Shown: positions 559 through 20,773 of the stretch, piece by piece
How positions within the stretch are numbered: position 1 is the stretch's first letter
How the letters are laid out: each line of letters starts with the position of its first letter
Notes under the pieces: generated by a model
The model's input: only the letters and a program-made list of their open reading frames with translations
Database searches by the model: none
Told to the model about the DNA's origin: nothing
Position numbers and translations under genes: made by a program
DNA from: a virus
IMG/VR virus record: IMGVR_UViG_3300043172_000682
Span: 1 to 20,773 of that record
Length of the DNA stretch: 20,773 nucleotides
Reading direction: 5' to 3' (one strand)

Positions 559-573
559 TTTAAATTCCTCCTA

Positions 574-2968: not shown

Positions 2969-2993
2969 ATTTTCCCCTCCTCATATATTATTT

Positions 2994-5779: not shown

Positions 5780-5805
5780 TACACTCACCTTCCTAATATA
5801 TTATA

Positions 5806-7930: not shown

Positions 7931-7971
7931 ATAAACAACCTCCCTCAGCATGATATTTAATAATATAACCA

Positions 7972-8000
7972 ATTATAACACATTAAAGTAAATAAAGCAA
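7972..8000 (-). promoter_or_regulatory. Leftward sigma70-type promoter of the head/packaging operon
   Basis: Read on the minus strand, TTGCTT (8000-7995), a 17-base spacer and TATAAT (7977-7972) form a near-consensus promoter, and TG one base upstream of the -10 box makes it an extended -10. The expected start near 7965 leaves about 35 bases of leader before the small terminase ATG. A consensus promoter suggests reading by unaided host RNA polymerase, though nearby repeats could add control. Confidence 0.8.
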
Positions 8001-8302: not shown

Positions 8303-8560
8303 ATGATGTGGAATATTTATTGGATGCATGAAGTATTTAAAGAAAAGATAAGGGAAGCCGCTATAGGGAAAGAAGTTACCACAGATAAAGGGTATAAATT
8401 TACCTATTATGATGATGGTCTTTTTGCTGAATTAAAACTAGGGGGTTACGTTAATGGCAGCTGGAGAAATGGACTTACTGTTAGAAAAGGTATTGTTATT
8501 GAACAACCCCACGGATATGAATATGGGAAAATAGTTTATCAAGGAAAGATGGAATTATGA
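8303..8560 (+). CDS. Hypothetical protein, first gene of rightward operon
   Basis: I do not recognise this 85-aa protein. It has an N-terminal helix rich in Trp and Met (MMWNIYWMHEVFKEKIREAA) followed by strand-like segments and many Tyr and Gly, suggesting a small alpha/beta fold with no membrane segment. GAGGGGGA lies about 10 bases upstream of the ATG (an alternative ATG is the next codon). It is the promoter-proximal gene of the operon and its stop overlaps the next start as ATGA. Being first behind a strong promoter fits an early-expressed host-takeover protein, but that is inference from position. Confidence 0.7.
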   Translation: MMWNIYWMHEVFKEKIREAAIGKEVTTDKGYKFTYYDDGLFAELKLGGYVNGSWRNGLTVRKGIVIEQPHGYEYGKIVYQGKMEL

Positions 8561-8841
8561 TACTAAGTAATCAAACAAACAAGGCAAAACACGTACCAAT
8601 ATTAGGAGTATTTCTTCCTAAGAGACCAATGGTGCATGATATGTCTGCAGGTGGTTACATTAAAAAAGATATATTTGAATACGACTTTGGTAACTTTTCA
8701 ATTATATTTATAGATGATACATTTTATATAACAAGTGGTAATACAAGTGCTATTGATACTACCCATATGATTATATTAGATGAATTACTTGTTACCGACA
8801 TAGTGAATGCCTTCTTAGAAAGAGGAGCGAGTAGTTCCTAA
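8557..8841 (+). CDS. Hypothetical protein
   Basis: Unrecognised 94-aa protein. The middle is strand-rich and hydrophobic (FGNFSIIFIDDTFYIT), and a C-terminal helix follows (ILDELLVTDIVNAFLERG). There is no signal peptide, cysteine cluster or clear catalytic motif. The ATG overlaps the stop of the preceding gene (ATGA), so translation is probably coupled. A weak AAGG lies upstream within that gene. Confidence 0.65.
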   Translation: MILSNQTNKAKHVPILGVFLPKRPMVHDMSAGGYIKKDIFEYDFGNFSIIFIDDTFYITSGNTSAIDTTHMIILDELLVTDIVNAFLERGASSS

Positions 8842-8855
8842 GGAGAAGAATTTAG

Positions 8856-9428
8856 ATGAAGAAGTTTACAAAAGAAAGAATTATAGACGAAAACGCAGTA
8901 CATCAAGATGATGTAAGAACATTAATGACTGAAAAAGCTGCCGCTATATTAATAAGGGGAGGCGAGCATGACTGGTCAAAGAACGGGGATGAACCCGTTA
9001 AACTATTAGTTAGTTGTTTAAATAAGGAAGTTCCTTGGGGTGAGTGGAATGAATATCACTTTAAGAAGGAAAGTCACCACCCAGAATTTTACAGTGATGT
9101 GACAGAAATGTCACTTGTAGATTTAATAGAGATGGTTATAGACGGAGCTTGTGCGTGCTATAGAAGAAATCCTAAAGAACCAATATTAAGCGAACAAGTA
9201 GCCCACTTTTTTAAAAAGAGATTTGATTTGCAGTTGTCTACGTTACTAGCAAATGAATTTATGAAGGCCTATAGGGAGATAGCGGCGTATACTGAATTAA
9301 ATGGTACTCGCGGACCTGCTGGGTTTAGTAATGAAACAGGACCTGCTGGTGAAATAACAAACAGTTGCCCTCGAGGTTCTACAGGCCCCGCTTGGGTTGG
9401 ACCCGTTTTAAAGGGTATAAAAATCTAA
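8856..9428 (+). CDS. DUF5662-like protein with degenerate collagen-like C-terminal tail
   Basis: The 190-aa protein carries the features of phage DUF5662 proteins: an N-terminal His-Asp pair with DWSK (38-42), KKESHHPEFY (70-79) and SLVDLIEMVIDG (86-97). These conserved His/Asp/Glu residues suggest a metal-binding, HD-like helical fold, with biochemical role unknown. From residue 149 it changes character: NGTRGPAGFSNETGPAGEI, then PRGSTGPAWVGPV. This is Gly-Pro-rich and collagen-like but interrupted, and is not part of the family as I know it. AAGGAG lies 10 bases upstream of the ATG. The TAA stop lies in the left arm of a hairpin that also covers the approach to the next gene. Confidence 0.7.
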   Translation: MKKFTKERIIDENAVHQDDVRTLMTEKAAAILIRGGEHDWSKNGDEPVKLLVSCLNKEVPWGEWNEYHFKKESHHPEFYSDVTEMSLVDLIEMVIDGACACYRRNPKEPILSEQVAHFFKKRFDLQLSTLLANEFMKAYREIAAYTELNGTRGPAGFSNETGPAGEITNSCPRGSTGPAWVGPVLKGIKI

Positions 9429-9446
9429 GGCGCATAGCTTAGGTTT
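9421..9446 (+). promoter_or_regulatory. Hairpin spanning the stop of one gene and the leader of the next
   Basis: AAATCTAAG (9421-9429) and CTTAGGTTT (9438-9446) pair over 9 bases with one G-U pair and an 8-base loop, followed shortly by ATTTTT. The stop codon of the upstream gene is in the left arm. It could be a weak terminator or a structure limiting initiation at 9457. Transcription must continue past it, since no promoter is obvious before the next genes. Confidence 0.5.
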
Positions 9447-9456
9447 GAAAATTTTT

Positions 9457-9729
9457 ATGAAAAGTAAATATGAATTAGGTAGTAACTCAATATCATTTTA
9501 CAACGTAGAGTATCTTGCTGAGGTATTGCAAAACAGGAATGACGAATTCGAATCAATTTTAAAGGGGCGAACGGAATTAACTGATAGTGAAGTAGTAATA
9601 CTAAAATATGTATTGTTGCATAGGGAAACAAATAGGAGATTTTACATAGACATAATATGGGACTTAGGCCTAGGAGGCTATTATCCAGACGTTATGACAT
9701 ATAGTGAAATAATAAAGTCCGCCAAATAA
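9457..9729 (+). CDS. Hypothetical protein
   Basis: Unrecognised protein of 90 aa from ATG 9457. The frame is open from a TTG at 9445, but that codon lies within the arm of the hairpin at 9421-9446 and no good binding site fits either start, so the start is uncertain. The sequence is mostly helical with an acidic middle (NRNDEFESILKGRTELTDSE) and aromatic residues near the C-terminus (YYPDVMTYSEI). There is no known motif. It lies in the same operon as its neighbours with a 26-base gap to the next gene. Confidence 0.55.
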   Translation: MKSKYELGSNSISFYNVEYLAEVLQNRNDEFESILKGRTELTDSEVVILKYVLLHRETNRRFYIDIIWDLGLGGYYPDVMTYSEIIKSAK

Positions 9730-9755
9730 AAAATACAAAAAATTAAAGGAAGATA

Positions 9756-9983
9756 ATGATGATAGATAAATTATATAAATGGTTAGACAAGAAAGCATTA
9801 GAGAATGGTTTCTATCTAATATACAAGTGCAGTGGGAAAGATTGGTGTGGTGAAGAGGCCTATTGTGGTAAGGGTAAATGCACCCACACATTTAAATTAT
9901 ATCAGGCAAAAAAAATATTCGGGATATTCCCATATATTACTGCAATAAGACCTGAAAAAGAAATAGGGGGAATTGAAAGATGA
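9756..9983 (+). CDS. Small cysteine-rich hypothetical protein
   Basis: Unrecognised 75-aa protein. Cys25, Cys31, Cys37, Cys42 and His44 cluster in the middle (CSGKDWCGEEAYCGKGKCTH) and could hold one zinc ion, flanked by an amphipathic N-terminal helix and a basic C-terminal segment. AAAGGAAG precedes two adjacent ATG codons (9756, 9759). The stop overlaps the next start as ATGA. Zinc binding is inferred from the spacing only. Confidence 0.65.
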   Translation: MMIDKLYKWLDKKALENGFYLIYKCSGKDWCGEEAYCGKGKCTHTFKLYQAKKIFGIFPYITAIRPEKEIGGIER

Positions 9984-10453
9984 AATACCTAATAAGAAGT
10001 AGAATTGATACTGTTAACAAAGAAATACAAGGCTCTAAGGATAGTATAGAGGCTTATGAAGAAGAATTAGAATTCCTACTTGAATTAGAGAAGGCTGAGA
10101 AGGAACAAAACAAGCCTGTGGAAAATCCATTTAAGGACTTACACGAACACCCATATGATAACGACCCATATCCATACCCACTAGCTGAACCATATGTATT
10201 TACAAAGAGCTGTCTTGGTTGTGACCATAGTGGTTCAGTGTTTATAAGTGGCTACAATCCTTGTAGAAACTGTATAAACTTTAATATGTGGACTCCTGCA
10301 ATAGGAAGGCTTAATGATATTGGTTGTGATGGTAATCAAGGGTATGATGGTGGTATAACTTTTACTAATCATGATATTAAAGCTCAGACTAAACAAGAAG
10401 TAATAGATGAAGCTAAGCAATTACTTAAGTATAGAAATGGAATAACTAGGTAA
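9980..10453 (+). CDS. Coiled-coil protein with zinc-knuckle motif, hypothetical
   Basis: The 157-aa protein begins with a coiled-coil-like helix (residues 5-45, rich in Glu and Lys), then a His/Pro/Tyr-rich linker, then two Cys pairs (Cys78-x2-Cys81 and Cys95-x2-Cys98) that look like a zinc knuckle. It closes with a Gly-rich segment and a helix. The arrangement suggests an oligomeric nucleic-acid or protein-binding factor, but I do not recognise a family. It overlaps the upstream gene (ATGA) and the downstream gene (TAATG), so it is part of a translationally coupled chain. Confidence 0.65.
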   Translation: MKYLIRSRIDTVNKEIQGSKDSIEAYEEELEFLLELEKAEKEQNKPVENPFKDLHEHPYDNDPYPYPLAEPYVFTKSCLGCDHSGSVFISGYNPCRNCINFNMWTPAIGRLNDIGCDGNQGYDGGITFTNHDIKAQTKQEVIDEAKQLLKYRNGITR

Positions 10454-10752
10454 TGTCTTTTAAAATAGCAAGAACTAGACCAATAGAAGTGGGTTATATT
10501 TCATTTAAAGACTTTGATGAAATATATGAGGCGGATAAAAATCAAGAAATACCCGTAACAACATACGCACTGTTCGATTCGATTAAGCATCGTACTAGGA
10601 AATGGTATAAACCTTTTCCGCATTATCAAATTAACTTAAATAGTAGACACTTAACTTTTTCTCACGCAGATGTACTTATATTTGAAGAAGGAAAGGAAGT
10701 AAAGACTTGTAGAGTTAAAGAATTTAGTAAAATTTATAGAAGATTAACATAA
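10453..10752 (+). CDS. Basic hypothetical protein, last gene of operon 1
   Basis: Unrecognised 99-aa protein, basic overall, with alternating strands and aromatic-basic stretches (HRTRKWYKPFPHYQ, CRVKEFSKIYRRL) that could bind nucleic acid. The ATG overlaps the preceding stop as TAATG, without a strong binding site of its own, consistent with coupling. A rho-independent terminator begins two bases after its stop, so it ends the first rightward transcription unit. Confidence 0.65.
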   Translation: MSFKIARTRPIEVGYISFKDFDEIYEADKNQEIPVTTYALFDSIKHRTRKWYKPFPHYQINLNSRHLTFSHADVLIFEEGKEVKTCRVKEFSKIYRRLT

Positions 10753-10753
10753 C

Positions 10754-10784
10754 AAAGATGCTATTTTTAATAGTGTCTTTTTTT
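10754..10784 (+). terminator. Rho-independent terminator of operon 1
   Basis: AAAGATGCTATT (10754-10765) pairs with AATAGTGTCTTT (10769-10780) over 12 positions, including two G-U pairs, with a TTT loop, and runs into seven T. It sits between a stop codon and a new promoter. Confidence 0.88.
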
Positions 10785-10788
10785 ACTC

Positions 10789-10817
10789 TTTACAGCAACA
10801 ACGGTGTTTGTTATAAT
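10789..10817 (+). promoter_or_regulatory. Rightward promoter of operon 2
   Basis: TTTACA (10789-10794), a 17-base spacer and TATAAT (10812-10817), with TG placed as an extended -10. It begins immediately after the terminator, and the expected start near 10824 lies about 22 bases before the next ATG. Confidence 0.85.
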
Positions 10818-10845
10818 ACAGTATAGAGTTATCTTGGAGGGTATT

Positions 10846-11103
10846 ATGTTATTTGTAGTTAAGCGATTTGCGGATGGTAGTGGTTATACTATTAAATCAA
10901 AGGTGGCCTTGGAGATATTAGGCTGGGATGATAGTGATGATATATTTAGTAGAACTAATATCTTAATGGATGTAGGCAATAAGGTAAGATTTTATTTAGA
11001 TAAGGAATTATTAGCAATAAGTGAAATATGTTATAAAAGGACACAAAAAAATGGGGCCATTAAGTATTATTGTGAGCTCCCTAAATTGGAGGAATTATGT
11101 TAA
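10846..11103 (+). CDS. Hypothetical protein, first gene of operon 2
   Basis: Unrecognised 85-aa protein with an alpha/beta pattern and mixed charge, with two Cys in the C-terminal half (YCELPKLEELC). The frame is open from 10804, but that point lies inside the promoter. The ATG at 10846 has GGAGG 6 bases upstream, so I use it. The C-terminus overlaps the next gene by 7 bases. As the leader gene of the second operon it should be among its best-expressed products. Confidence 0.7.
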   Translation: MLFVVKRFADGSGYTIKSKVALEILGWDDSDDIFSRTNILMDVGNKVRFYLDKELLAISEICYKRTQKNGAIKYYCELPKLEELC

Positions 11104-11303
11104 AATATGATAAGGAATTATTTGATGGCTTTGACCTTGACGAATATGTGTTTGTTTATGAATGTCATTTAGGTGGCGCTTATTACCTAGAAATTGAAGA
11201 AATACAGTACGAGGACTTATATTGTGAAACTTGTGGTGATGCTGATTATCTTGAGGATGAAGGAACTGTACGTGAACTATTAGAAAGAGAGGAGGAAGAA
11301 TAA
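11097..11303 (+). CDS. Small, very acidic hypothetical protein
   Basis: Unrecognised 68-aa protein with a strong excess of Asp and Glu, ending in an acidic helix (LLEREEEE). A CETC pair (Cys43, Cys46) and Cys23 may bind metal. Strong negative charge in a small phage protein can mean DNA mimicry, known for several anti-restriction proteins, but no specific similarity is visible and charge alone is weak evidence. GGAGG precedes its ATG inside the upstream gene. The stop overlaps the next start (TAATG). Confidence 0.65.
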   Translation: MLKYDKELFDGFDLDEYVFVYECHLGGAYYLEIEEIQYEDLYCETCGDADYLEDEGTVRELLEREEEE

Positions 11304-11590
11304 TGAATGATTATTTAAAGGAAATAGAAAGACAAGAGAATGAAAGACTTAATGATTTTTTGGAGTCGGCAACAATATCAATTAAATTGTCGGGTGGTAA
11401 TGCTGGTAGAGGGCTAGATAAAATTGAAGTTGGTACTTATAACGGATATGGTCCAGCTCTTATAATTAAATATACACATAAGACAGCCTATATTAATATC
11501 AATTGTAATTCAATAGAGGCGACGGCTAGACAGTTATTTAATTATGTTTATACTGGTAAGGCACAAGGATTTATAGCGGAGGAATACTAA
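11303..11590 (+). CDS. Hypothetical protein
   Basis: Unrecognised 95-aa protein. The first 20 residues form a highly charged helix (YLKEIERQENERLNDFLE), followed by strand-rich segments (ATISIKLSGGN, GPALIIKYTHKTAYININ). No catalytic motif is visible. GAGGAGG precedes the ATG, and both ends overlap neighbours by single bases (TAATG), marking a tightly coupled chain from 11097 to 12248. Confidence 0.65.
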   Translation: MNDYLKEIERQENERLNDFLESATISIKLSGGNAGRGLDKIEVGTYNGYGPALIIKYTHKTAYININCNSIEATARQLFNYVYTGKAQGFIAEEY

Positions 11591-12042
11591 TGAAAAAATA
11601 TGTTAGAACCGAGGATGGAACAATAGCTGTTTTTAAATATAAAGAGGCAAATAGATTTGAGGGTTATACTTACTATTATACAAATAAGATTAGCCTTCAC
11701 GATATAAAGTGTCACGGCTATTCATCTTGGTATGAAGAATATTATGGTTATTGCCCAGACGCAGAGTTTGATATGGACCAATCACGAATTGTTAAAATTA
11801 AATTAAGTGGGGATAAATTAACTGATGTGCTTTTAAATAGTGATATTTTAAGTGTTGATAACGGTCTTGTAATTTGGACTTATACAATATTACAACTAAA
11901 AGAATTATGGCGGGAAGAAAATTGGCTTCCAACACAGGAGTTTTATAATGACTTTGGTGGATATTTAAGAGATATGATTAAACGTGGCTACAAGGTAACC
12001 ACACAAGAACACTATAGGCACTTAGCACAGGAGGTATCATAA
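11590..12042 (+). CDS. Hypothetical protein
   Basis: Unrecognised 150-aa protein, rich in Tyr (for example YTYYYTNK and WYEEYYGYCP). It has an N-terminal strand-rich half and a more helical C-terminal half (DFGGYLRDMIKRGYKV). There is no cysteine pair, signal peptide or membrane segment. It has GGAGG before the ATG and single-base stop/start overlaps on both sides. Confidence 0.65.
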   Translation: MKKYVRTEDGTIAVFKYKEANRFEGYTYYYTNKISLHDIKCHGYSSWYEEYYGYCPDAEFDMDQSRIVKIKLSGDKLTDVLLNSDILSVDNGLVIWTYTILQLKELWREENWLPTQEFYNDFGGYLRDMIKRGYKVTTQEHYRHLAQEVS

Positions 12043-12248
12043 TGGCTAATATAATGACAAACGGAAATACAAGTATAAGGATAGAGGATAATAAAATATT
12101 CATAAACGGTGTTGAGGTTGAAAGACCAGCGGGGATGAAAGGATATAGTATATCCCAAATTAATGATAAGATTTATATGGATGGCTATGAACTTAAAAAC
12201 GGAAAATGGAAAAGAACCCTAAAGGGATTATTCCATTACTTATTTTAG
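12042..12248 (+). CDS. Small beta-rich hypothetical protein
   Basis: Unrecognised 68-aa protein composed mainly of short strands with repeating pattern (IRIEDNKIFINGVEVE, then INDKIYMDGYELKNGKW) and a basic C-terminal end (RTLKGLFHYLF). The two half-repeats resemble each other, suggesting an internal duplication of a beta-hairpin. AGGAGG precedes the ATG, and it overlaps the upstream stop. Confidence 0.65.
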   Translation: MANIMTNGNTSIRIEDNKIFINGVEVERPAGMKGYSISQINDKIYMDGYELKNGKWKRTLKGLFHYLF

Positions 12249-12258
12249 GAGGAAAAAG

Positions 12259-12453
12259 ATGGAAGATTTAATTAAATTTGTAAAGACTCAGATACATACA
12301 CATGAATTTATGCTTGAGGATGAAGAAATGATGTACAGAACATTTGAGGCTATGGATATGACACCTAAACTATGTGCCGAAATGGTTGGTAGTGTAAAGG
12401 GCCAATTAAGAGCTTTTAACCGTATGTTAATGAAAATACTGGAGGTTACTTAA
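12259..12453 (+). CDS. Small helical hypothetical protein
   Basis: Unrecognised 64-aa, Met-rich, all-helical protein (EDLIKFVKTQIHTHEFMLEDEEMMYRTF, then LCAEMVGSVKGQLRAFNRMLMKIL), with the look of a small helical bundle. AGGAGG lies shortly before the ATG, and the next gene starts one base after its stop. No function can be assigned. Confidence 0.62.
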   Translation: MEDLIKFVKTQIHTHEFMLEDEEMMYRTFEAMDMTPKLCAEMVGSVKGQLRAFNRMLMKILEVT

Positions 12454-12454
12454 T

Positions 12455-12844
12455 ATGACTAAATTAGAACAGATTAAAATTATTGCTAATAACGTATTGT
12501 ATTTTGATGACGGTAGTGATTACGCTACTGCCCTATATGAAATACTTGATGTATTAGGTTATACAGAGAAACAGATGCACAATCTTGCTTATATTGACGA
12601 GGACGAATCAAAAAGAGAAATAACTAATGAATGTCCAGTTTGTAAAGTAGGAACACAAAGAGAGAATTTAGGCTCTATGAGTACATTAATGGGCTGGACA
12701 ACAATGGTAGATGAATTTGGGGAAACTATAAATAATGACCCTAATACGATAACGACTGCTTATAGATGTATGGATTGTAAGACTGCCTTCCAAACAAAAA
12801 GTAAGTATGGGAAGATATTTTCAAAGGAGATAATTAATGATTAA
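12455..12844 (+). CDS. Zinc-ribbon hypothetical protein
   Basis: A helical N-terminus (residues 1-50) is followed by a split zinc ribbon with Cys60-Pro-Val-Cys63 and Cys105-Met-Asp-Cys108, separated by 41 residues, the layout of a zinc-binding nucleic-acid or protein-interaction ribbon. Total length is 129 aa and I recognise no family. GGAGG precedes the ATG. The last 8 bases overlap the next gene, which also ends in a zinc ribbon. Confidence 0.65.
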   Translation: MTKLEQIKIIANNVLYFDDGSDYATALYEILDVLGYTEKQMHNLAYIDEDESKREITNECPVCKVGTQRENLGSMSTLMGWTTMVDEFGETINNDPNTITTAYRCMDCKTAFQTKSKYGKIFSKEIIND

Positions 12845-13199
12845 ACCGACAAGAATTGAGTGTACACGAGCTGGCCTTGTGAACATCACATTTGGTAAAG
12901 AGTATGACGTTCATAACTTGGATGGTTATGAGTACCAGATTACTGATGATAAGGGTTTTAATACGTGGCTAGATAAGGACCACGTAGAAGTATTGTACCA
13001 AAACAAACTTGCTTTTGTGACTGTTAATTCTGGGCCAATATATGTAGAATGTACTTGTCCTCATTGTGGGGAAGAAATAGAAATTGCCTATAGTGAGTTC
13101 ATTAGTGACCAATTATATGATTATCCCGGAGATTGGGATGAATTTGAATGTCCAGAATGTTATGAAACTATTGAAATAGAAGAATTAGAGTGGGAGTAA
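12837..13199 (+). CDS. Protein with SH3-like N-terminus and zinc ribbon, hypothetical
   Basis: Residues 1-55 (from RIECTRAGLVNITFGKEYDV to WLDKDHVEVL) look like a small SH3-type barrel of a kind common in phage hypothetical proteins. Residues 70-120 hold a zinc ribbon, Cys74-x2-Cys77 and Cys105-x2-Cys108, in a very acidic surround. This pairing suggests a protein-binding adaptor, but the partner is unknown. AAGGAG precedes the ATG. Confidence 0.65.
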   Translation: MIKPTRIECTRAGLVNITFGKEYDVHNLDGYEYQITDDKGFNTWLDKDHVEVLYQNKLAFVTVNSGPIYVECTCPHCGEEIEIAYSEFISDQLYDYPGDWDEFECPECYETIEIEELEWE

Positions 13200-13209
13200 G
13201 GAGGAAATT

Positions 13210-13614
13210 ATGAGTATTGAAGTAATGAAAAGGGAAACACCTAAAGCAAGAATAAAACATAGATGCAGTTGGTGTAGTGGTGTTATTGAAAAGGGTGAAG
13301 TATATGATAAACAAACAATTTTACTTGATGGCCGTTTTTATGATTGGAAAAGTCATAAATTGTGTATGAAAATAGTTAGCTTTCTAGATATGTACTCTTA
13401 TGATGATGGGTATGGTGTAGGAAGAGATGACTTTGTAGATGCCATTACTGAATATCATTATGAAGAAGTAGGTCAATATGTTGCACGAGATGAAACTTTG
13501 GAATATGAATATGAAACAGATTGGGATGAAGCTTATGCTTATGTTGTAAAAAGAATGAGAGATAAGGAGATTAAAGATGCACAAAATAAAATTACAGATA
13601 AAACCAAAGCCTAA
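13210..13614 (+). CDS. C2HC zinc-finger-like phage protein
   Basis: The first 52 residues show Cys19-x2-Cys22 followed by IEKGEVYDKQ, then His49-x2-Cys52. This resembles a short zinc-finger module seen in many phage hypothetical proteins (KARxxHxCxxCxxxIxKGE). The remainder is Tyr-, Asp- and Glu-rich and ends with a helix. It is 134 aa long. AGGAGG precedes the ATG. The last 38 bases overlap the next gene, which has its own binding site (AAGGAG) inside this one. Confidence 0.68.
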   Translation: MSIEVMKRETPKARIKHRCSWCSGVIEKGEVYDKQTILLDGRFYDWKSHKLCMKIVSFLDMYSYDDGYGVGRDDFVDAITEYHYEEVGQYVARDETLEYEYETDWDEAYAYVVKRMRDKEIKDAQNKITDKTKA

Positions 13615-13834
13615 AACTTGTGGTGAATGTATTTTTTGTAGAACACATACGGTTGAGTTTAAGCCAGATTCTGAACCGCCGGTGTTTTCAAAAGGATTAA
13701 TAAGGCCTTGGAAGGAAACATACTGCAAGATAACAAGTTATAAAATAAGGCGCAAAGAGGACTTATTACATAGTTGTCCTGCAAGGAGTAGAAGATGGCA
13801 AAGAAAGAAATTACAAAAAGATATGAAGCAGTAG
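13577..13834 (+). CDS. Small basic cysteine-rich protein, putative zinc finger
   Basis: This 85-aa protein is strongly basic at both ends and carries Cys15-x2-Cys18-x2-Cys21, Cys50 and Cys67, a likely zinc site. The basic C-terminus (RSRRWQRKKLQKDMKQ) suggests nucleic-acid binding. Its ATG has AAGGAG 8 bases upstream and starts inside the previous gene. Its end overlaps the nuclease gene by 40 bases. Overlap in different frames on both sides is unusual, but binding sites support all three genes. Confidence 0.65.
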   Translation: MHKIKLQIKPKPKTCGECIFCRTHTVEFKPDSEPPVFSKGLIRPWKETYCKITSYKIRRKEDLLHSCPARSRRWQRKKLQKDMKQ

Positions 13835-14292
13835 TATATCACCACTTTTTTCTAAACAAGGCAATGAGAGTTGGCCTAGAGGTTGATGTAATAACTGGTA
13901 GAGTAGATGTGCTAGCAAGAAAAGGTAGAGAATATATTTTTATAGAAATTAAAACAAGTGTACAAGATTTTAGGAGTAAGAACGGACATAATTTCTTTGG
14001 AACTAAGAACTATTATGCAATGCCAGAGAAAGTATTTGAGAAAGTTAAGCATAGAATACCTAAACATATTGGAGTTTATACAATAGTCGAGGGTGACTGG
14101 GGAAGACCTAAATTAAGTTGTCTTAAGAACAGTAAAACAGTCGATATGCCTAAGGAAATAGGTAAGGGTAGATATAAGTGGAGTAAACAAAAATACATTA
14201 AGGCAATAGACGAAAATCTACTGACGGCTTGTAATAGTGCGATTAATAGATTAATGAAGCCTTGGAGGGAAAAATGGGTAAAGGAAGAATGA
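13795..14292 (+). CDS. PD-(D/E)XK nuclease-like protein, MmcB-type
   Basis: The fold signature is clear: RVDVLARKGREYIFIEIKTS (from residue 36) gives Asp38 and Glu51-x-Lys53, the metal-binding and catalytic residues of PD-(D/E)XK nucleases. DFRSKNG (58-64), NYYAMPEKVFEKVKHRIPKHIGVYTI (72-96) is the pattern of the MmcB-like/VRR-like branch, associated with DNA repair or structure-specific cutting. Length (165 aa) suits a single nuclease domain, with a basic helical C-terminus. AAGGAG precedes ATG 13795. Substrate is unknown: branched or damaged DNA, or host DNA, are the main possibilities. Confidence 0.75.
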   Translation: MAKKEITKRYEAVVYHHFFLNKAMRVGLEVDVITGRVDVLARKGREYIFIEIKTSVQDFRSKNGHNFFGTKNYYAMPEKVFEKVKHRIPKHIGVYTIVEGDWGRPKLSCLKNSKTVDMPKEIGKGRYKWSKQKYIKAIDENLLTACNSAINRLMKPWREKWVKEE

Positions 14293-14750
14293 TACCTTAT
14301 GCAACAAGTAAAAAAGGAATAGTTAACTCCCTTAGAACGTGGAAGACACTTAATGGGCATACTAATGACTGTTGGGCAGTATCTATATCACTAGCTACTG
14401 GGGTAGACTATAATTATATTAGGGAATATGCTAAGAGTATTAGGGCCTTAACTCCCGAAGATAGAATTTATATGCACTATGATAGAATATTAATCAACCG
14501 CCTTGGCTTTGCAACAAGACAATTCTACAATGTAACATTTGATGAAGAAACTACAGTAAGAGAATTAGTAAAATCACTTGACAAAGATAAAAAAGTAATA
14601 TTGTGGTGTACTTACTGGGATAAGGAAATTGGTGTTGAGATAAGGCACTTAATCTACTCAACTAATAATGAAATTTGGGATGATAAAAGGAATAGAGTAG
14701 GTTGGAAAGTTAATATAGCTATGGAAATTATAGATTTGGGGGAGGAATAA
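14274..14750 (+). CDS. Papain-like Cys-His protein, putative cysteine peptidase or transglutaminase-fold
   Basis: HTNDCWAVSISLATGVDYNYI places Cys33 at the start of a helix, the hallmark of papain-like phage and bacterial proteins. The matching His is probably His125 in VEIRHLIYS, with Asp136 or Asp137 after it (EIWDDKRN) as the third residue and the usual strand-turn-strand order. It is 158 aa from ATG 14274, which has GGAGGG just upstream. The open frame extends to a TTG at 14262 that lies next to that site and is less likely. Proteolytic or amide-bond chemistry is inferred from fold; the target is unknown. Confidence 0.6.
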   Translation: MGKGRMIPYATSKKGIVNSLRTWKTLNGHTNDCWAVSISLATGVDYNYIREYAKSIRALTPEDRIYMHYDRILINRLGFATRQFYNVTFDEETTVRELVKSLDKDKKVILWCTYWDKEIGVEIRHLIYSTNNEIWDDKRNRVGWKVNIAMEIIDLGEE

Positions 14751-14751
14751 A

Positions 14752-15108
14752 ATGAGTTATACAGAAGCACACGCGGGAACACTAAAAAAGATAGTATTTC
14801 CTGAAGGAATGATTTATGCTTTAAAAATTGGTGTTTTAAAGAATGCTGGACACCAGTTCAGTTATGAGGATTACAAGTATAAGCAATTTGAATGTGATAC
14901 AATTTTTTACTCTTCTAAGTTTGATGAGTTTTACGAAATTAAAAATATTGAAATAGATTTAGATGGTAGTCTACATTTCGAGAATAAAGCTGATGGGGTT
15001 ATAGAGTATGGTTTTGCTTTTTATAATGGTGGGGCTGGTTTTGAAGAAGTAATGGATTACGTTATTGAAGAAGCAAGAAGTGAGGAGGCGACTAATGGCA
15101 AGAGGTAG
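14752..15108 (+). CDS. Hypothetical protein
   Basis: Unrecognised 118-aa protein, acidic and rich in aromatic residues, with a mix of strands (FYEIKNIEIDLDGSLHFE, IEYGFAFYNGG) and a C-terminal acidic helix (EEVMDYVIEEARSEEA). It starts just after the upstream stop with GGGAGG before its ATG. Its last 14 bases overlap the DUF2188-like gene. Confidence 0.63.
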   Translation: MSYTEAHAGTLKKIVFPEGMIYALKIGVLKNAGHQFSYEDYKYKQFECDTIFYSSKFDEFYEIKNIEIDLDGSLHFENKADGVIEYGFAFYNGGAGFEEVMDYVIEEARSEEATNGKR

Positions 15109-15367
15109 AATATTGGGTTATCACTTAGTACCACACCGTAGAGGTAATGGGAAGCTTTGGGCATTAAGAAGAAGAGAAGAAGGCGTTGAAAACGTTAGAA
15201 GTTCTAGAGTATTTTCCGAATCGATGTTAGAGGATGCGATTGCATTAGGTACAAAATGGGCAGAACAACATAATGTGAGGTTTTATATTCACGACAAAGG
15301 CGGAAGGGTAAAAGAAGTAATAAACGAAGATGCACCACCAATAAATGGAAAAGAGGTAAAATTATGA
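15095..15367 (+). CDS. DUF2188-like small protein
   Basis: The 90-aa protein reads like DUF2188: an N-terminal YHLVPHRRGNGKLWALRR, then the central SSRVFSESMLEDAIALGTKWAEQ helix, then VRFYIHDKGGRVKEV. This small two-stranded, one-helix fold is found in many bacteria and phages, with unknown function. The frame is open to TTG 15065, but ATG 15095 has GAGGAGG a few bases upstream and starts exactly at the conserved region, so I use it. The stop overlaps the next ATG. Confidence 0.75.
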   Translation: MARGRILGYHLVPHRRGNGKLWALRRREEGVENVRSSRVFSESMLEDAIALGTKWAEQHNVRFYIHDKGGRVKEVINEDAPPINGKEVKL

Positions 15368-15879
15368 GAATTGATGTACATTATAGTTACATAAAGGGCG
15401 GAATGTTTAATAATGATAAATACTACGGTGATTTCCAGTATGAAACCAGCGCTCAGGAAGACGCTAGAAAATGGCTTGATATCGAGGGTATAAAACTGGC
15501 GATAGAGGCAAGACATAATATTAAAGGTGTATCTATTAGAGGTGTAATGCCTAAAGAGGATATCTTAGGTCTTGGAAAACAGGAACTTTGGGAAGAGGTA
15601 ACAATTGGAGAGTACCACGAAGAGAACCACCATAATTTTGATAAATATAAATATCAATTTGTTTGTCCTAATTGTGGTAGAGTAGATAGAATTAGTTGGA
15701 CAGCTACACAATTAGCCAAGAATACAGCTGATGAAGTAATGGTTGGACTTACTTATAAGTGTCCTTGTAGCGCTTCTAGTGTACGTACAAAGTTATCAGT
15801 GAAAGATTGGGAGAGTAAGGTACAGTATATATATGACGAGGATGGAAATTTTAGTCATTATGAGGAGATAGTAGAGTAA
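15364..15879 (+). CDS. Zinc-ribbon hypothetical protein
   Basis: This 171-aa protein has an alpha/beta N-terminal domain and then a zinc ribbon in the C-terminal half: Cys101-x2-Cys104 and Cys133-x-Cys135. The second pair has a short one-residue spacing, so binding may also use a His nearby (His86, His89 or His90). It ends with an acidic strand-helix segment. It overlaps the upstream gene by 4 bases (ATGA) and is followed directly by the next ATG. Confidence 0.63.
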   Translation: MRIDVHYSYIKGGMFNNDKYYGDFQYETSAQEDARKWLDIEGIKLAIEARHNIKGVSIRGVMPKEDILGLGKQELWEEVTIGEYHEENHHNFDKYKYQFVCPNCGRVDRISWTATQLAKNTADEVMVGLTYKCPCSASSVRTKLSVKDWESKVQYIYDEDGNFSHYEEIVE

Positions 15880-16272
15880 ATGCCTTTTCCTATAATACCT
15901 AATACACCTCCAATGCCTCCTGTGAGGCCAGTAGCTAAAGAAAGAACAACTACAATCCCAGAAGGACAAGAGTGGCCAAAGAGTGGTGTTCAAAGATATC
16001 TTAACCCTCGTACTGATAGATTTATAGACAAAAATATAGAGGACATTATTAAGTCAAACCCCTATAGTCCGGAGACATTAGCCAGAATAGATACTATTCG
16101 TAGGGGCTTGGCGAAGGATAGAGAAAGAAGAATGGGAAGACTTGCTGGTAATATACTAGACCCTAACTTATGGCATGAGCATATGTCTAAACTCCACAAA
16201 TTAAGCTTGGGATTGATAGAAGAACCAAAACAACCAAAAAGGCCAGAAGGTCAAAGAATAAAAATGTTTTAG
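15880..16272 (+). CDS. Proline-rich, basic hypothetical protein
   Basis: Unrecognised 130-aa protein. Residues 1-20 are almost a proline string (PFPIIPNTPPMPPVRPV), followed by a basic helical body (ARIDTIRRGLAKDRERRMGRLAGN) and a Pro/Lys-rich C-terminus. It looks partly disordered, with a single helical domain that may bind nucleic acid or a partner. GAGGAG lies about 12 bases before the ATG, which immediately follows the upstream stop. Confidence 0.63.
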   Translation: MPFPIIPNTPPMPPVRPVAKERTTTIPEGQEWPKSGVQRYLNPRTDRFIDKNIEDIIKSNPYSPETLARIDTIRRGLAKDRERRMGRLAGNILDPNLWHEHMSKLHKLSLGLIEEPKQPKRPEGQRIKMF

Positions 16273-16284
16273 GAGGAGAGAAAA

Positions 16285-16515
16285 ATGAAAAATGAACTTG
16301 AGAAACACGCAGCTAAACTAATAGCTGAAGAAATACCTAAATTCTACAAGGTAGACATATTAGATTATTATGACTACAGCCATTATACTACTTATGTAAA
16401 TGAGACTAAAATGGCCTCATTAAGACAAAATATGGGTAATAATATGGACGGTTTCGGAGATATAGTAGAAATTAGTGAAGAAGATTACTTAAAACATAAA
16501 AGGAGTTGGGATTAA
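16285..16515 (+). CDS. Small hypothetical protein
   Basis: Unrecognised 76-aa protein with an N-terminal helix (ELEKHAAKLIAEEIPKFYKV), an Asp/Tyr-rich strand region and an acidic stretch before a basic C-terminal end. AGGAGG precedes the ATG. The next gene starts immediately after its stop, with its binding site inside the last codons here. Confidence 0.62.
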   Translation: MKNELEKHAAKLIAEEIPKFYKVDILDYYDYSHYTTYVNETKMASLRQNMGNNMDGFGDIVEISEEDYLKHKRSWD

Positions 16516-17001
16516 TTGGAAAAAAGTTGGATTGAAAAAATAACTGAGAATTTACTTGAGTATATGTCAAAAGCAACAGATAAAATAGAGGAGTTCAGTA
16601 CTTCTATGGATAAGATAAGTAAGGTTAAGGAAGAACCATTAGTTGAGGATACTTGTGACCTTCACGACAGAGGTAGGGACGCATTTGAAGCCTTAGAGTA
16701 CTTATATTGGGATAGTCTTTCACATAATGATTATTATTGCACCACAGAACAAGAAAAAGCACATTTTGGTGGTCTCACTGAAGAATATAATACACTAGTT
16801 ATAGAGGAATTAAGAGAACTAGAGAAGAGAAGAGAGTTTGACAAACCAGTACAATTTGCTATGGATATACATACAGGACCTTATTGTCCCGAATGTGGCT
16901 CTAAAGTAAGGTGGTATAGTAATGGTTATCAACAAAAATTCTGTAGTCAATGTGGAAAACCAATTAAGAATGATAGGGGCTGTAGTAACATTGAATACTA
17001 G
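16516..17001 (+). CDS. Helical protein with C-terminal zinc ribbon (TTG start)
   Basis: The 161-aa protein starts at TTG 16516, directly after the previous TAA, with GGAG about 10 bases upstream. No better ATG exists before the helical region. Residues 1-40 form a charged helix, 45-110 a helical acidic domain, and 122-150 a classic zinc ribbon, YCPECGSK with Cys124/Cys127 and FCSQCGKPI with Cys143/Cys146. The C-terminal ribbon is of the type often attached to regulatory or nucleic-acid-binding phage proteins. No family is recognised for the N-terminal part. Confidence 0.65.
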   Translation: MEKSWIEKITENLLEYMSKATDKIEEFSTSMDKISKVKEEPLVEDTCDLHDRGRDAFEALEYLYWDSLSHNDYYCTTEQEKAHFGGLTEEYNTLVIEELRELEKRREFDKPVQFAMDIHTGPYCPECGSKVRWYSNGYQQKFCSQCGKPIKNDRGCSNIEY

Positions 17002-17269
17002 GGAGTGGGATAAGGTAGCAAAGAGGCTAAAGAAACAAAAAGTGAGTAGCGAAGATATAATGATGGTTGAGGGATTGTTAAGTACATCAAATGCTTGGGA
17101 GTCCCTAAAAGAAATATTAGGCAGGGATAAAAGGTATGATGAATTTAATGATAAGCACCGAGTATCTGAAAAATTATTTGATGCCCAATGTTGTAGTGCT
17201 GCAATACACGTAGCATATACAGTTATCAGGATGCTGGACGAACTAGAGGAGGTAAATAATGAAGGTTAA
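16970..17269 (+). CDS. Hypothetical protein (start uncertain)
   Basis: Unrecognised, largely helical protein. The frame is open from 16922, which would overlap the upstream zinc-ribbon gene by 80 bases. I place the start at ATG 16970, giving 99 aa, though no strong binding site precedes it. TTG 16991, with AGGGG 11 bases upstream, is an alternative. The body has basic helices (EWDKVAKRLKKQKV), a middle helix and a C-terminal segment with paired cysteines (FDAQCCSAAIHVAYTVIRML). It ends inside the next start region, overlapping by 11 bases. Confidence 0.55.
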   Translation: MIGAVVTLNTREWDKVAKRLKKQKVSSEDIMMVEGLLSTSNAWESLKEILGRDKRYDEFNDKHRVSEKLFDAQCCSAAIHVAYTVIRMLDELEEVNNEG

Positions 17270-17579
17270 CAAAAGTATGAAATGTAGTAATACTGACTGT
17301 GTGTATTTAAGTATACATAAAATATGTCTATATAGTGATGACGTTGAAGGATATGTAGATTGCCTTAGTAGGGATATGATTCCAGCTAAGAATGATTTCA
17401 AAGATTGTAACTGTGATTGTTTTCGTGAATTAAATGACTTGAAAGATGACCTAAGATTTATAGTTAACAGAGCAAAAAAGGACCAATCAAAGGCAAGGAT
17501 TCATCCATTTGCTAGTTATGAAGCAATGGGTAAAGTAGTAGACTTGTTAATTCTGGATATAAATGATTTAACTAAATAA
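17259..17579 (+). CDS. Small cysteine-rich hypothetical protein
   Basis: Unrecognised 106-aa protein with a cysteine-rich first half (Cys9, 14, 23, 35, 50, 52, 54) that probably binds zinc or another metal, followed by helices (RELNDLKDDLRFIVNRAKKD, MGKVVDLLILDINDL). The CNCDC group with neighbouring Cys is unusual for an ordinary zinc ribbon. GAGGAGG precedes the ATG, inside the end of the upstream gene. Confidence 0.63.
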   Translation: MKVNKSMKCSNTDCVYLSIHKICLYSDDVEGYVDCLSRDMIPAKNDFKDCNCDCFRELNDLKDDLRFIVNRAKKDQSKARIHPFASYEAMGKVVDLLILDINDLTK

Positions 17580-17599
17580 AAATATGGAGGAACAAAATT

Positions 17600-18049
17600 A
17601 TGGGAATTAATGAAGTTGGGGTTCAAGGGATTGAAGTATCAAACAAGCCAATGAGGTTAAAGGATATAGAGGCTGGGTTGCACGTAATAGAGATGGACTA
17701 CGGAATAGGTTTAGTTATTAAGCAAGGTTTTGTTAGTGGTAGTAAAGTTCCTAAGGATGTAAGTAAGAGTGGCTTACTAGTTGCTTGGGAAACGGGAATG
17801 TATTGTACACTGACTCAAAATATGCTTGATGGAAATAGTAAGCATCATGCTAATGACCACTTAGTAAAACGTATAGGAGTAATTAAGGAAGCGGCTGAAT
17901 TATTCAGAAAAGATAGTAAACTAGCTAACAATGTAAATTGGATATGGCATAAAAGTGAAGAAAAACCAGTACTTGAGTTAACAATTGAGGAAATAGCTTT
18001 GAAGTATGAAGTCGACGTGTGTCAAATAAAAATAGTGGAGGTTAAATAA
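17600..18049 (+). CDS. Hypothetical protein, paralog of the next gene
   Basis: Unrecognised 149-aa protein. It shares an order of motifs with the following gene: NKPMRLKDIEAGLHVIEMDYGIGLVI, then CTLTQNMLDG, then KRIG, and a C-terminal LTIEEIALKYEVDVCQIKIVE. The fold seems to be a strand-rich domain plus a C-terminal helix-strand element. GGAGG precedes the ATG. The stop overlaps the next ATG as TAATG, so the pair are coupled. Tandem duplication is inferred from the shared pattern. Confidence 0.68.
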   Translation: MGINEVGVQGIEVSNKPMRLKDIEAGLHVIEMDYGIGLVIKQGFVSGSKVPKDVSKSGLLVAWETGMYCTLTQNMLDGNSKHHANDHLVKRIGVIKEAAELFRKDSKLANNVNWIWHKSEEKPVLELTIEEIALKYEVDVCQIKIVEVK

Positions 18050-18453
18050 TGAGTATAGAAGGGCCAAGAAGTAAGGTAGTAATGGTATTAAATGAGCCTA
18101 TGAAAGTAGAAGACGTAATAGCTGGGTCTCACATAGTAGAAGCAAATTATGGAATAGGGCTTATTGTACTAGATAGTAGCGGTATTAAAAAGATTTGCTG
18201 GGAGAATGATAGTCTATGCACTTTGAAGCAAGGTATGCTAGATGGCGGTTATCATCCAGCTAGTCACGACATTAAAAGAATAGGAAAATTAGATAATGTA
18301 AGTCAGTTTCTAAGAGATGGTACGGTTCTAGATGACGTAGTTAAGTGGGGAGTTTGGGAACGCAGTAGTGAAGTAAAAATGGTTGACATCAGCCTACGAG
18401 ACATAGCTGAGGTTCACGGAATCGACGTTAATCAAATCAACATTGTTGACTAG
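18049..18453 (+). CDS. Hypothetical protein, paralog of the preceding gene
   Basis: A 134-aa protein that repeats the pattern of the upstream gene: NEPMKVEDVIAGSHIVEANYGIGLIV, CTLKQGMLDG, KRIG and ISLRDIAEVHGIDVNQINIV. Identity is moderate and scattered, so the duplication is old. It is 15 residues shorter, with the loop after the first strand set reduced. GGAGG precedes the ATG, whose first base overlaps the upstream stop. Function is unknown for both. Confidence 0.68.
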   Translation: MSIEGPRSKVVMVLNEPMKVEDVIAGSHIVEANYGIGLIVLDSSGIKKICWENDSLCTLKQGMLDGGYHPASHDIKRIGKLDNVSQFLRDGTVLDDVVKWGVWERSSEVKMVDISLRDIAEVHGIDVNQINIVD

Positions 18454-18485
18454 TTAAGTATTAGAAAAATATTGGAGGGATAGAA

Positions 18486-18890
18486 ATGATGAATACTAAT
18501 GTAATGAAGGATTTAATGGAAGTCAATGGTATAGTCTGTGAGTATAGGTTTCAAGGATTCAAGCAACTAGTTGATGAGTGCATCGTCAAGATAGAAGAAC
18601 AGACTTACAAGGTAATCAATGAAGTAGCTGAAGATATAGACAATGCTATAAATGAAAGCGGCTTAAAACATTTTATGGAGTTAGGTCTCGACGTACAGTT
18701 ATTAAGTAGTTATGCTAATATATCTGGTAGTGGTGGTGACTATGAGATAAAGCAGTTAAGTGACGATAGAAGAATTGCAACTATAGTAGGCGGTGCAGTT
18801 ACTAAATTCGAAAGAGACATAACGCCAGACAATATCGATGCATTCAAAGTTCTATATACCACAGTACTATACGGAATCGTAATTTATTAA
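18486..18890 (+). CDS. Hypothetical protein, last gene of rightward operon
   Basis: Unrecognised 134-aa protein. The first 60 residues are helical and charged (FKQLVDECIVKIEEQTYKVINEVAEDIDN), a Gly-rich turn follows (NISGSGGDYEIKQLSDDRR), then strands and a hydrophobic C-terminus (FKVLYTTVLYGIVIY). There is no signal peptide. GGAGGG precedes two adjacent ATG codons. The operon terminator lies about 44 bases downstream, so this is the end of the second unit. Confidence 0.65.
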   Translation: MMNTNVMKDLMEVNGIVCEYRFQGFKQLVDECIVKIEEQTYKVINEVAEDIDNAINESGLKHFMELGLDVQLLSSYANISGSGGDYEIKQLSDDRRIATIVGGAVTKFERDITPDNIDAFKVLYTTVLYGIVIY

Positions 18891-18933: not shown

Positions 18934-18967
18934 TTAGCATTCTCTTATAGGGGGTGCTAATTTTTTT
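18934..18967 (+). terminator. Rho-independent terminator of operon 2
   Basis: TTAGCATTCTC (18934-18944) pairs with GGGGGTGCTAA (18950-18960) across 11 positions (with G-U pairs), a TTATA loop and a run of seven T. It closes the rightward operon. Confidence 0.9.
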
Positions 18968-19102
18968 ATAAAAATATTTCAAGCGGGCGGGGGTTTAGAG
19001 ACTTACCGATTTACCGTTTAAAACATTTAGTGATGTTAGCACATATAGGGGACTTAAAAAATGACTTACTATTGGAGTGAACCACTGATAGTATGTAAAA
19101 AA

Positions 19103-19128
19103 TAAAAAAAAAGGTAACTTAGGTTACC
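19103..19128 (-). terminator. Leftward-facing terminator-like hairpin with T-run
   Basis: GGTAAC and GTTACC (19113-19118, 19123-19128) form a perfect 6-base stem around TTAG. On the minus strand it is followed by a run of nine T (19112-19104), the form of a terminator for transcription arriving from the right. No leftward gene is visible to its right, so its role may be insulation. Confidence 0.55.
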
Positions 19129-19164
19129 AAAACATATTTGTTAGGGTAGTCTAACACTTAATTA

Positions 19165-19222
19165 ATGTGTAGTACACAATAACCATACACCATAATATAA
19201 TATATGTGTAGTACACAATAAC
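19165..19222. repeat. Two direct repeats with palindromic core
   Basis: ATGTGTAGTACACAATAAC occurs at 19165-19183 and again at 19204-19222, offset by 39 bases. Each contains the inverted repeat TGTGTA-G-TACACA. This looks like a pair of sites for a dimeric DNA-binding protein or short iterons. They sit at the left edge of the dinucleotide-restricted DNA. Further along, AAACGTGTTA is repeated in tandem near 19296-19315. Confidence 0.75.
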
Positions 19223-19346
19223 TATTATATATGGGGGGTGTATAATTTACGTTTTAAAGGTATTTAAAATGTATGTGTACTATATTTGTATTTTAAACGT
19301 GTTAAAACGTGTTAAAACTAATATTTTAATGGTTTAATGGTATTAC

Positions 19347-19505
19347 AATGGTATGTGTATAGTGTATATAAAATGTATGTGTATTATATGGGTGTATGTG
19401 TGGGGTGTATATGTGTGTATGGGGGTGTATGTGTGGGGGGTGTATATATGGGGTTATATGTGGGGGGTGGTGGTGTATGGTATGGGGGTTAATTAGTTAG
19501 TGTTA
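19347..19505 (+). other. 159-base C-free, G-run-rich tract
   Basis: No C occurs between 19347 and 19505 on the plus strand. Seven G-runs of three to six G occur at 19390, 19402, 19421, 19435, 19450, 19462 and 19484, joined by TGTAT-rich spacers of 8-16 bases. A transcript through it would leave a G-rich non-template strand, prone to R-loops or G-quadruplexes. No gene is visible in it. Confidence 0.75.
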
Positions 19506-19631
19506 CCAACTAATATTAGTGTATATATACCCCTTAAAACCGTACATTTTAACTATTGTTTTGTATTTTATGTAATACCCAAAAAACCCTTATGTTATAT
19601 AGGTTTAATGGGGTGATGGAGGTATGTTATT

Positions 19632-19673
19632 ATGGTATGGTTTAAAATAAATATAAATAAAGGTAACAAATAA
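19632..19673 (+). CDS. Possible 13-codon leader peptide
   Basis: ATG 19632 opens a 13-codon frame (MVWFKININKGNK, then TAA). GGAGG lies at 19618-19622, 9 bases upstream, which is correct spacing. This binding site contains one of only two GA pairs of the whole restricted region. A leader peptide or a chance match are both possible. The next gene starts 240 bases downstream. Confidence 0.25.
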   Translation: MVWFKININKGNK

Positions 19674-19912
19674 CAATATATATGGTATTATTAGGTTGTA
19701 CCAAAACATATAATTAAGTACACCCACACAATATAAACCATTACATACAAGGGTAGTAAACTAATTAAGGTTTGGTAATAACTGTTATTTGGTAACTTAA
19801 TATAACCTAGTACACAAGTACATACTTAAAATGGTTATAACATACTAATAAAGGGGTTTTTACCTTTTATTGGTACATTGTAAAATTATGGTTTAAAACA
19901 AGGGGTATTATA

Positions 19913-20395
19913 ATGGGTATTAACAATAAAAAAAGTAACGTGGTAACAACTGTTAAAACAAACACTACTAAACCAGTAACAACTAAACCAGTAACAACTA
20001 AACCAGTAACAACTAAACAAAAAACACCACAACCCACAAATGTAATTAAAATTAACAAGTTTTTACAAAGTGGTAACGTAATTACACTATATAAAATTGT
20101 ACAAACAAGTTTATTAAATGGTGGTAGTATTACAAATAATAGTGGTGTAAAAACAAGTTTAAAAGGTTTTACACAATACAATATTACAAACGTAACTATA
20201 CTTAACAACCGTAATATAGTATTGGTTAATGTGTACTTAAAAAATGGTAATTTACCTATAATTACTTGTACACGTAAATTAAAAACTGGTGGTACTAATA
20301 CTGTTTTATATAACCACCTACCAAATAAACACATACAACAGTTAGTAACTAACCAAATTAATAAATATAACTATAATAAACCAGTAACAAAGTAA
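19913..20395 (+). CDS. Basic 160-aa protein without Asp, Glu or Ala
   Basis: Unrecognised protein encoded within the restricted DNA. It has no Asp, Glu, Ala or Trp, and by my count 27 Thr, 25 Asn, 20 Lys and 2 Arg, so it is strongly basic. Residues 16-36 are a Thr/Lys/Pro linker made by three perfect 15-base repeats (19967-20011, TKPVT units). The motif returns at the C-terminus (NKPVTK). Residues 43-150 look like a folded alpha/beta domain with alternating hydrophobics (NVTILNNRNIVLVNVYLKNGNLPIITC), so the frame is probably real. AAGGGG, 7 bases before the ATG, serves as a rule-compatible binding site. A nucleic-acid-binding role is inferred from charge only. Confidence 0.72.
   Translation: MGINNKKSNVVTTVKTNTTKPVTTKPVTTKPVTTKQKTPQPTNVIKINKFLQSGNVITLYKIVQTSLLNGGSITNNSGVKTSLKGFTQYNITNVTILNNRNIVLVNVYLKNGNLPIITCTRKLKTGGTNTVLYNHLPNKHIQQLVTNQINKYNYNKPVTK
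19967..20011 (+). repeat. Three perfect 15-base tandem repeats within a gene
   Basis: ACTAAACCAGTAACA occurs three times head to tail and encodes TKPVT each time. A partial fourth copy follows, and AAACCAGTAACA recurs near the end of the same gene. Perfect identity suggests recent expansion or gene conversion. Confidence 0.9.
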
Positions 20396-20407
20396 TTAAT
20401 TTATACC

Positions 20408-20469
20408 CCCTATTTTATAACAAGTTTATAAGTGTATAAAATAAATACCATAACCATTATAAAATAGGG
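20408..20469. repeat. 13-base inverted repeat downstream of the 160-aa gene
   Basis: CCCTATTTTATAA (20408-20420) and TTATAAAATAGGG (20457-20469) are perfect inverted copies separated by 36 bases, starting 12 bases after the stop codon. There is no T-run on the right, so it is not a typical terminator. It may stabilise mRNA ends or be a binding site. Confidence 0.7.
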
Positions 20470-20505
20470 TTGTAACATAAAAACCTTACAATGTACCAAT
20501 AAAGG

Positions 20506-20526
20506 GTATAAACAATAAGTTTATAC
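20506..20526. repeat. 8-base inverted repeat upstream of the 71-aa gene
   Basis: GTATAAAC and GTTTATAC flank AATAA, a perfect small dyad 25 bases before the start codon of the 71-aa gene. Its position suits an operator or translational control element. Confidence 0.6.
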
Positions 20527-20551
20527 ACCTAAATAAAAAAGGGGTGTTAAA

Positions 20552-20767
20552 ATGGTACAAAATTTACTAAAGGGTATGTTAATAGGTAAAAACCAAGTTT
20601 TTATTATAAAAAGTGGTGGTATACCAATATTTAGTGGTACTAAAAAGGGTTTATATACTAGTAAACGTAAAAACCTAGTTAATAGTATTGTTAGGGGTTG
20701 TTGTATACAACCAAGTATGGGTATATACCATAACATAATTAGTACACCAGTAATAATTATTAATTAG
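20552..20767 (+). CDS. 71-aa protein without Asp, Glu or Ala
   Basis: Unrecognised small basic protein from the restricted DNA. It contains no Asp, Glu, Ala or Trp. It has a hydrophobic-strand and glycine pattern (KNQVFIIKSGGIPIFSGTKKG), a basic helix (YTSKRKNLVNSIVRGC) and a hydrophobic C-terminus (HNIISTPVIIIN), which reads like a folded small domain rather than noise. AAAAAAGGGGTG lies about 8 bases before the ATG, the same GA-free binding site form as in the preceding gene. It ends with TAG six bases before the window edge. TGA cannot occur under the rule, so only TAA and TAG are available as stops. Confidence 0.68.
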   Translation: MVQNLLKGMLIGKNQVFIIKSGGIPIFSGTKKGLYTSKRKNLVNSIVRGCCIQPSMGIYHNIISTPVIIIN

Positions 20768-20773
20768 TATTAA

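Follow-up and report, generated by a model that had tools for sequence, protein, structure and literature searches.

Our analysis of a viral contig (IMG/VR record IMGVR_UViG_3300043172_000682, taken whole at 20,773 bases and hereafter called the window) confirmed an island in which the dinucleotides GA, TC and GC are nearly absent, and islands of the same kind were found in four other contigs from separate IMG/VR records (Table 1). Pooled, the five islands held 19 forbidden steps in comparison to 713 expected in 6.3 kb, leaving 2.7% of the expected GA, TC and GC. We suggest, with moderate confidence, that the island avoids the sites of the clade's DpdA and thereby forms a modification-free cassette within a modified genome. 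Mechanism aside, islands that recur in five related phages need explaining.

The right end of the window falls within its island. A recount of positions 19152-20773 gave two GA (19615 and 19619), no TC and no GC, identical to the count of the first-pass annotation, which had placed the start of the regime at 19152. The regime itself held, but its true start was slightly earlier, at 19088, as the last ordinary GA lies at 19087 and a TC at 19150 is the sole exception up to 19152. With this TC the exceptions number three, and from 19621 to the contig end the island is unbroken by forbidden steps. The longest step-free run in the window was 45 bases before 19087 in comparison to 465 bases within the island, and observed/expected values in the remaining window were about 1.0 for GA, 0.94 for TC and 0.92 for GC, which agrees with the earlier description of the adjacent 19 kb as unbiased. 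Given the three banned steps and the base composition, the other dinucleotides of the window island were mostly near maximum entropy, with the largest deviations at -2.4 (CG) and +2.4 (AT). In keto/amino form, the rule is that after G or T an A or C is allowed solely as TA, and this exclusion of keto-to-amino steps other than TA is equivalent to stating that on either strand G never precedes A or C. A fixed word is depleted symmetrically on the two strands to a degree that base composition does not explain, and the initial view of a rule acting on duplex DNA, in coding and non-coding sequence alike, was borne out. A rule at the RNA level was rejected because TC was lost along with GA.

Table 1. 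Positions of features in the window and in the related contigs that carry islands
Contig	Feature	Position	Strand	Remark
Window	Packaging/head module (terS, terL, portal, protease, capsid)	1..7972	-	Source of queries for relatives
Window	Small-gene operon (presumed early), oriented toward island	8303..18890	+	Layout matches relatives
Window	Terminator-like hairpin and T-run, end of rightward early operon	18934..18960	+	
Window	Island without GA, TC, GC	19088..20773	.	3 forbidden steps vs ~198 expected; right end past contig
Window	Island border: A-run, then GGTAAC	19104..19128	.	Minus strand terminator-like GGTAACCTAAGTTACC-T9
Window	TGTGTAGTACACAATAAC x2, palindromic core, iteron-like	19159..19225	+	
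Window	Non-coding G/T-rich tract	19226..19490	+	G-runs end in T every time
Window	28-nt inverted repeat arm	19856..19883	.	Partner 20486-20513
Window	Ribosome-binding-like AAGGGG	19900..19905	+	GGAGG impossible under rule
Window	160-aa ORF, no D, E or A, pI 10.5, in-frame TTKPV repeat	19913..20395	+	No homolog found
Window	Ribosome-binding-like AAGGGG	20539..20544	+	
Window	71-aa ORF, no D, E or A	20552..20767	+	No homolog found
G002	Island	93353-94501		IMGVR 3300027985_000700, 108,396 bp
G008	Island	3239-4463		IMGVR 3300043112_000063, 102,045 bp
G010	Island	about 10180 to contig end		IMGVR 3300005910_000259
G004/L030	Island	77-1000		IMGVR 3300035698_014459
L030, G008	Conserved 14-residue ORFs MLTLIRLLLKIILH and MLGILRALLKIIFK	L030 about 146-190, G008 about 3213-3257	minus	

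Relatives were sought through the portal and terminase proteins, and their head proteins were 50-60% identical to those of the window. The first-pass annotation had proposed tracing where the regime starts and ends and whether it recurs; it starts at 19088, reaches the contig end and recurs in the four relatives. Island length in this phage group was about 1-1.7 kb with sharp borders. In G002 and G008 ordinary phage DNA flanks the island on both sides, and all runs free of G before A or C (GM) that exceed 84 bases in G002 and 77 bases in G008 fall within it. The position of the island was likewise conserved, as in all five phages the packaging genes point away from it, the small early genes point toward it and it is located beyond the distal end of the latter. 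The motif AAAGGTA was found in the four relatives where the island starts or close to that point, and an A-run followed by GGTAAC (GGTACC in G008) was present in all five. Each island has a non-coding part of 0.4-0.8 kb that contains promoter-like sites, followed by 1-3 small ORFs, upstream of which AAGGGG or GGTAGG serve as ribosome-binding-like sites compatible with the GA ban. The far end of the cassette in G004 and G008 is a 14-residue ORF (MLTLIRLLLKIILH and MLGILRALLKIIFK) with its own ribosome-binding-like site. Distant terminase relatives in which the search gave no DpdA match had no island. Directly 3' of the G002 island, positions 94502-94560 are dense in GA and TC (AAAAGAAAAAGAAGAAAAGGAAGATGAAAGTCTTC).

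Alignment identified one protein family encoded in four of the islands (107 aa in G008, 116 aa in G010, 144 aa in G002 and 113 aa in G004). Asp, Glu and Ala were entirely absent from the island ORFs counted, those of G002, G008 and the window, and normal paralogs containing D, E and A are encoded outside the island at 94879-95262 and 106704-107000 in G002 and at 1151-1465 in G008. As one family occurs both under and outside the rule, the constraint lies on the DNA segment and not on the protein. AlphaFold gave a three-helix model for the island family (pLDDT 77) that had no significant fold match and no known relatives. The 160-aa ORF of the window yielded a poor model (pLDDT 40) and no detectable kinship to the family encoded in the other islands (hhalign 0.1%), and the window island ORFs had no homology in viral contigs, genome contigs, phages, PHROGs or Pfam. 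That neither the 160-aa nor the 71-aa ORF is detectably of this family speaks against the gene as the cause of the rule, although the window island is truncated and may continue into a family member past the contig end. A tandem repeat with a 15-nt unit (19943-20023) encodes the TTKPV repeats where the 160-aa ORF begins. No Rfam family or tRNA was found in the window, and a search for the iteron pattern TGTGTAGTACACAATAAC matched 16 unrelated contigs, none with the regime.

Since the rule bars G before A or C, a G-modifying enzyme was suspected and DpdA was checked; this hypothesis was set down before the pathway genes turned up in G002. FolE, QueD, QueE, QueC and DpdA, through which 7-deazaguanine enters phage DNA, are all encoded in G002 and G008, both of which are near-complete. 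The dpdA homolog matched phrog_887 in G002 (E 1.6e-27; NCBIfam DpdA 4e-4) and in G008 (E 7.8e-51). No methyltransferase signature motif was found in G002 or G008 genes of at least 120 aa, and DpdA is therefore the sole recognised DNA-modifying enzyme in these genomes. In the window contig and the two other short island contigs DpdA is not visible; all three are fragments, and the pathway region lies outside the 20.8-kb window. The phage of the window is thus provisionally placed in the DpdA-bearing group by relatedness of portal and terminase (50-60% identity). A GIY-YIG homing endonuclease-like ORF (G002 31109-31819) adjoins the DpdA frame, which is seemingly interrupted near its N-terminus.

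Under the reading that we favour, the phage group would make preQ0 by means of FolE, QueD, QueE and QueC, and DpdA would swap it for G in finished DNA. The DpdA of this clade would take as its target, on either strand, a G that precedes A or C, and its substitution of G in duplex DNA would explain the joint loss of GA and TC. A segment without GA, GC and TC would offer the enzyme no target and stay unmodified. Selection may accordingly have cleared the target sites from a cassette past the early operon that consists of a leader of about 0.4-0.8 kb and 1-3 small genes. The likeliest use of such a cassette would be that host machinery reads or binds it at a stage when phage factors adapted to modified DNA are not yet present, although this early-expression purpose, taken by itself, is possible rather than probable. 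A site-free segment would likewise be required for an origin, a packaging site or protection against nuclease cleavage of unmodified DNA. Among the ideas initially put forward for the regime, a modification constraint is thus the one favoured, in the form of the DpdA pathway, and a mutational process is disfavoured; the idea of a host defence with a very short target keeps its short duplex target, and the host defence is not needed.

The mutational alternative, for example a cytosine deaminase that targets double-stranded DNA where C follows T or G, has one point in its favour, namely that C-to-T changes at TC and GC on both strands remove precisely the three lost steps. The predicted equilibrium of such a process is about 10% GC and 0.5% GG, whereas the islands have 22-29% GC, with 4-6% GG in the three islands compared. 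In comparison to the nearest paralogs, replacement of E by K accounted for only 3 of 28 in island proteins and E to Q, N, T or P was far commoner; the joint marks of deaminase hypermutation (GC loss with E-to-K, D-to-N and A-to-T/V changes) were not found. A stop-to-stop frame of 184 codons exceeded the 99th percentile of a first- or second-order regime model (142 or 133), and ORFs and ribosome-binding-like sites are intact. The islands resemble RIP/APOBEC-type hypermutated DNA in that C and G steps are lost from both strands in a context-dependent manner, but their GC content, G-runs, open frames and replacements contradict such an origin. Selective avoidance fits the GC content, the G-runs and the amino-acid replacements, deamination does not, and we regard mutational erasure as very unlikely. 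An artefact (a chimeric contig, a contaminant or a synthetic sequence) was suggested by the window contig stopping inside the island, and the first-pass annotation had named chimeric assembly as what would overturn it; this is refuted for the relatives, as four other IMG/VR contigs have the island and two of these embed it in normal phage DNA, which makes an artefact extremely improbable. It is hardly more credible that D-, E- and A-free or low-complexity proteins gave an apparent DNA constraint. Codons for these residues do require GA and GC, but the rule also governs 0.4-0.8 kb that is non-coding, which refutes this reading, as well as the steps between adjacent codons, and same-family paralogs outside the island contain all three residues.

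Nuclease avoidance would also explain why the sites are wholly avoided on both strands, and it does not conflict with the presence of the DpdA pathway. In this case an endonuclease of the host or the phage would cut unmodified G before A or C and modification would shield the remaining genome, while the island, existing or working in unmodified form, would survive solely by having zero sites. Bacterial Dpd systems do act on unmodified DNA (PMC6884629). However, no candidate nuclease was identified and there is no reason for one exposed kilobase while the remaining virion DNA is protected, and we consider this explanation unlikely, though worth keeping in view. The rule would also suit any other duplex-DNA target of the same form, such as that of an unrecognised modification or a duplex-binding protein, distinct from DpdA, acting on G before A or C. 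No methyltransferase signature motif was seen in genes of at least 120 aa in the two long genomes, both carry the complete DpdA pathway and the published DpdA sites overlap with the rule, all of which leave this alternative quite doubtful.

Phage restriction-site avoidance, in which a duplex DNA word is counter-selected on both strands, is comparable to the island in this respect. Known cases concern words of 4-6 bases dispersed over the genome. In contrast, the island has lost a two-base target from one kilobase with sharp borders and is near normal elsewhere; depletion across the genome of the kind expected from restriction-site avoidance was not found, as observed/expected values outside the window island were 0.92-1.0. 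Phages can also have a restriction-site-free leading region, as in the T7 entry region, which is likewise a local target-free stretch possibly serving an early function. The island differs in its two-base target, in the modification pathway alongside and in being placed at the early operon's distal end. The literature, including work on deazaguanine, gave no description of a comparable island, and the partial coverage of that search makes it weak evidence of absence.

The closest known systems are the DpdA 7-deazaguanine phages (dPreQ0/dG+; CAjan, 9g and Iggy; Queuovirinae), whose full gene set is shared by G002 and G008 and whose known sites resemble the suggested one in being short, beginning with G and including GA. 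The DpdA sites of phage CAjan are GA and GGC (PMC8306585), in comparison to G-A and G-C as suggested here, and a single GA motif is given for a Pseudomonas phage group in the title of Olsen 2023. Applied to CAjan, the GM rule overshoots, as it predicts 117,000 modified G per million nt in comparison to 70,628 reported. No comparable island was found in 13 other DpdA phages scanned, indicating that DpdA alone is insufficient for an island, and the expression of CAjan and other 7-deazaguanine phages without an obvious clear zone counts against the DpdA reading. Of the two long genomes, only G002 showed mild genome-wide depletion of GA, TC and GC (0.70-0.81; overall 0.74), the value in G008 coding DNA being 0.92, and in CAjan, HD01 and Iggy GA/TC were depleted and GC enriched. 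This contrast fits a GA+GC site in the island clade and a GA-led site in CAjan, HD01 and Iggy, with composition as a confounding factor. The comparison of intergenic and coding depletion showed no clear promoter effect.

Among the DpdA phages, Shewanella phage S0112 (MK675901) has a mostly unannotated stretch at 21541-22400 that is GA/TC-poor and GC-rich, including two 200-bp segments with 2 GA/TC each in comparison to 24 expected; in 29 control contigs observed/expected never fell below 0.32. This stretch could be the same device for a GA-only site, in a weaker and partly interrupted form. The GA/TC minimum seen locally in CAjan and Iggy was rejected as a counterpart, as it lies within a gene beside a nuclease gene and may be protein-driven.

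If the DpdA reading is true, base modification has a local cost, which the phage avoids because an entire locus has been rewritten, and the target site of a modification enzyme would be readable from sequence alone. The island would then point to a first infection step that is intolerant of 7-deazaguanine, and would represent a clear zone written into the sequence of an epigenetically armoured genome, paid for with proteins that contain no Asp, Glu or Ala. Paralogs that occur in pairs, one within the island and one beyond it, amount to a natural experiment on how a protein can be built with neither acidic residues nor alanine.

Several other features were observed in this phage group. The terminase large subunit is encoded in two segments in three relatives (L030 5587-7638, G001 11125-13669 and G008 8900-10852), split by an intron- or homing-element-like insertion, and the window gene is intact. 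Near the end of the early operon of the window, 17600-18049 and 18049-18453 are tandem paralogs (37% identity), and amid the early genes 8856-9428 encodes a DUF5662 domain protein with a collagen-like tail.
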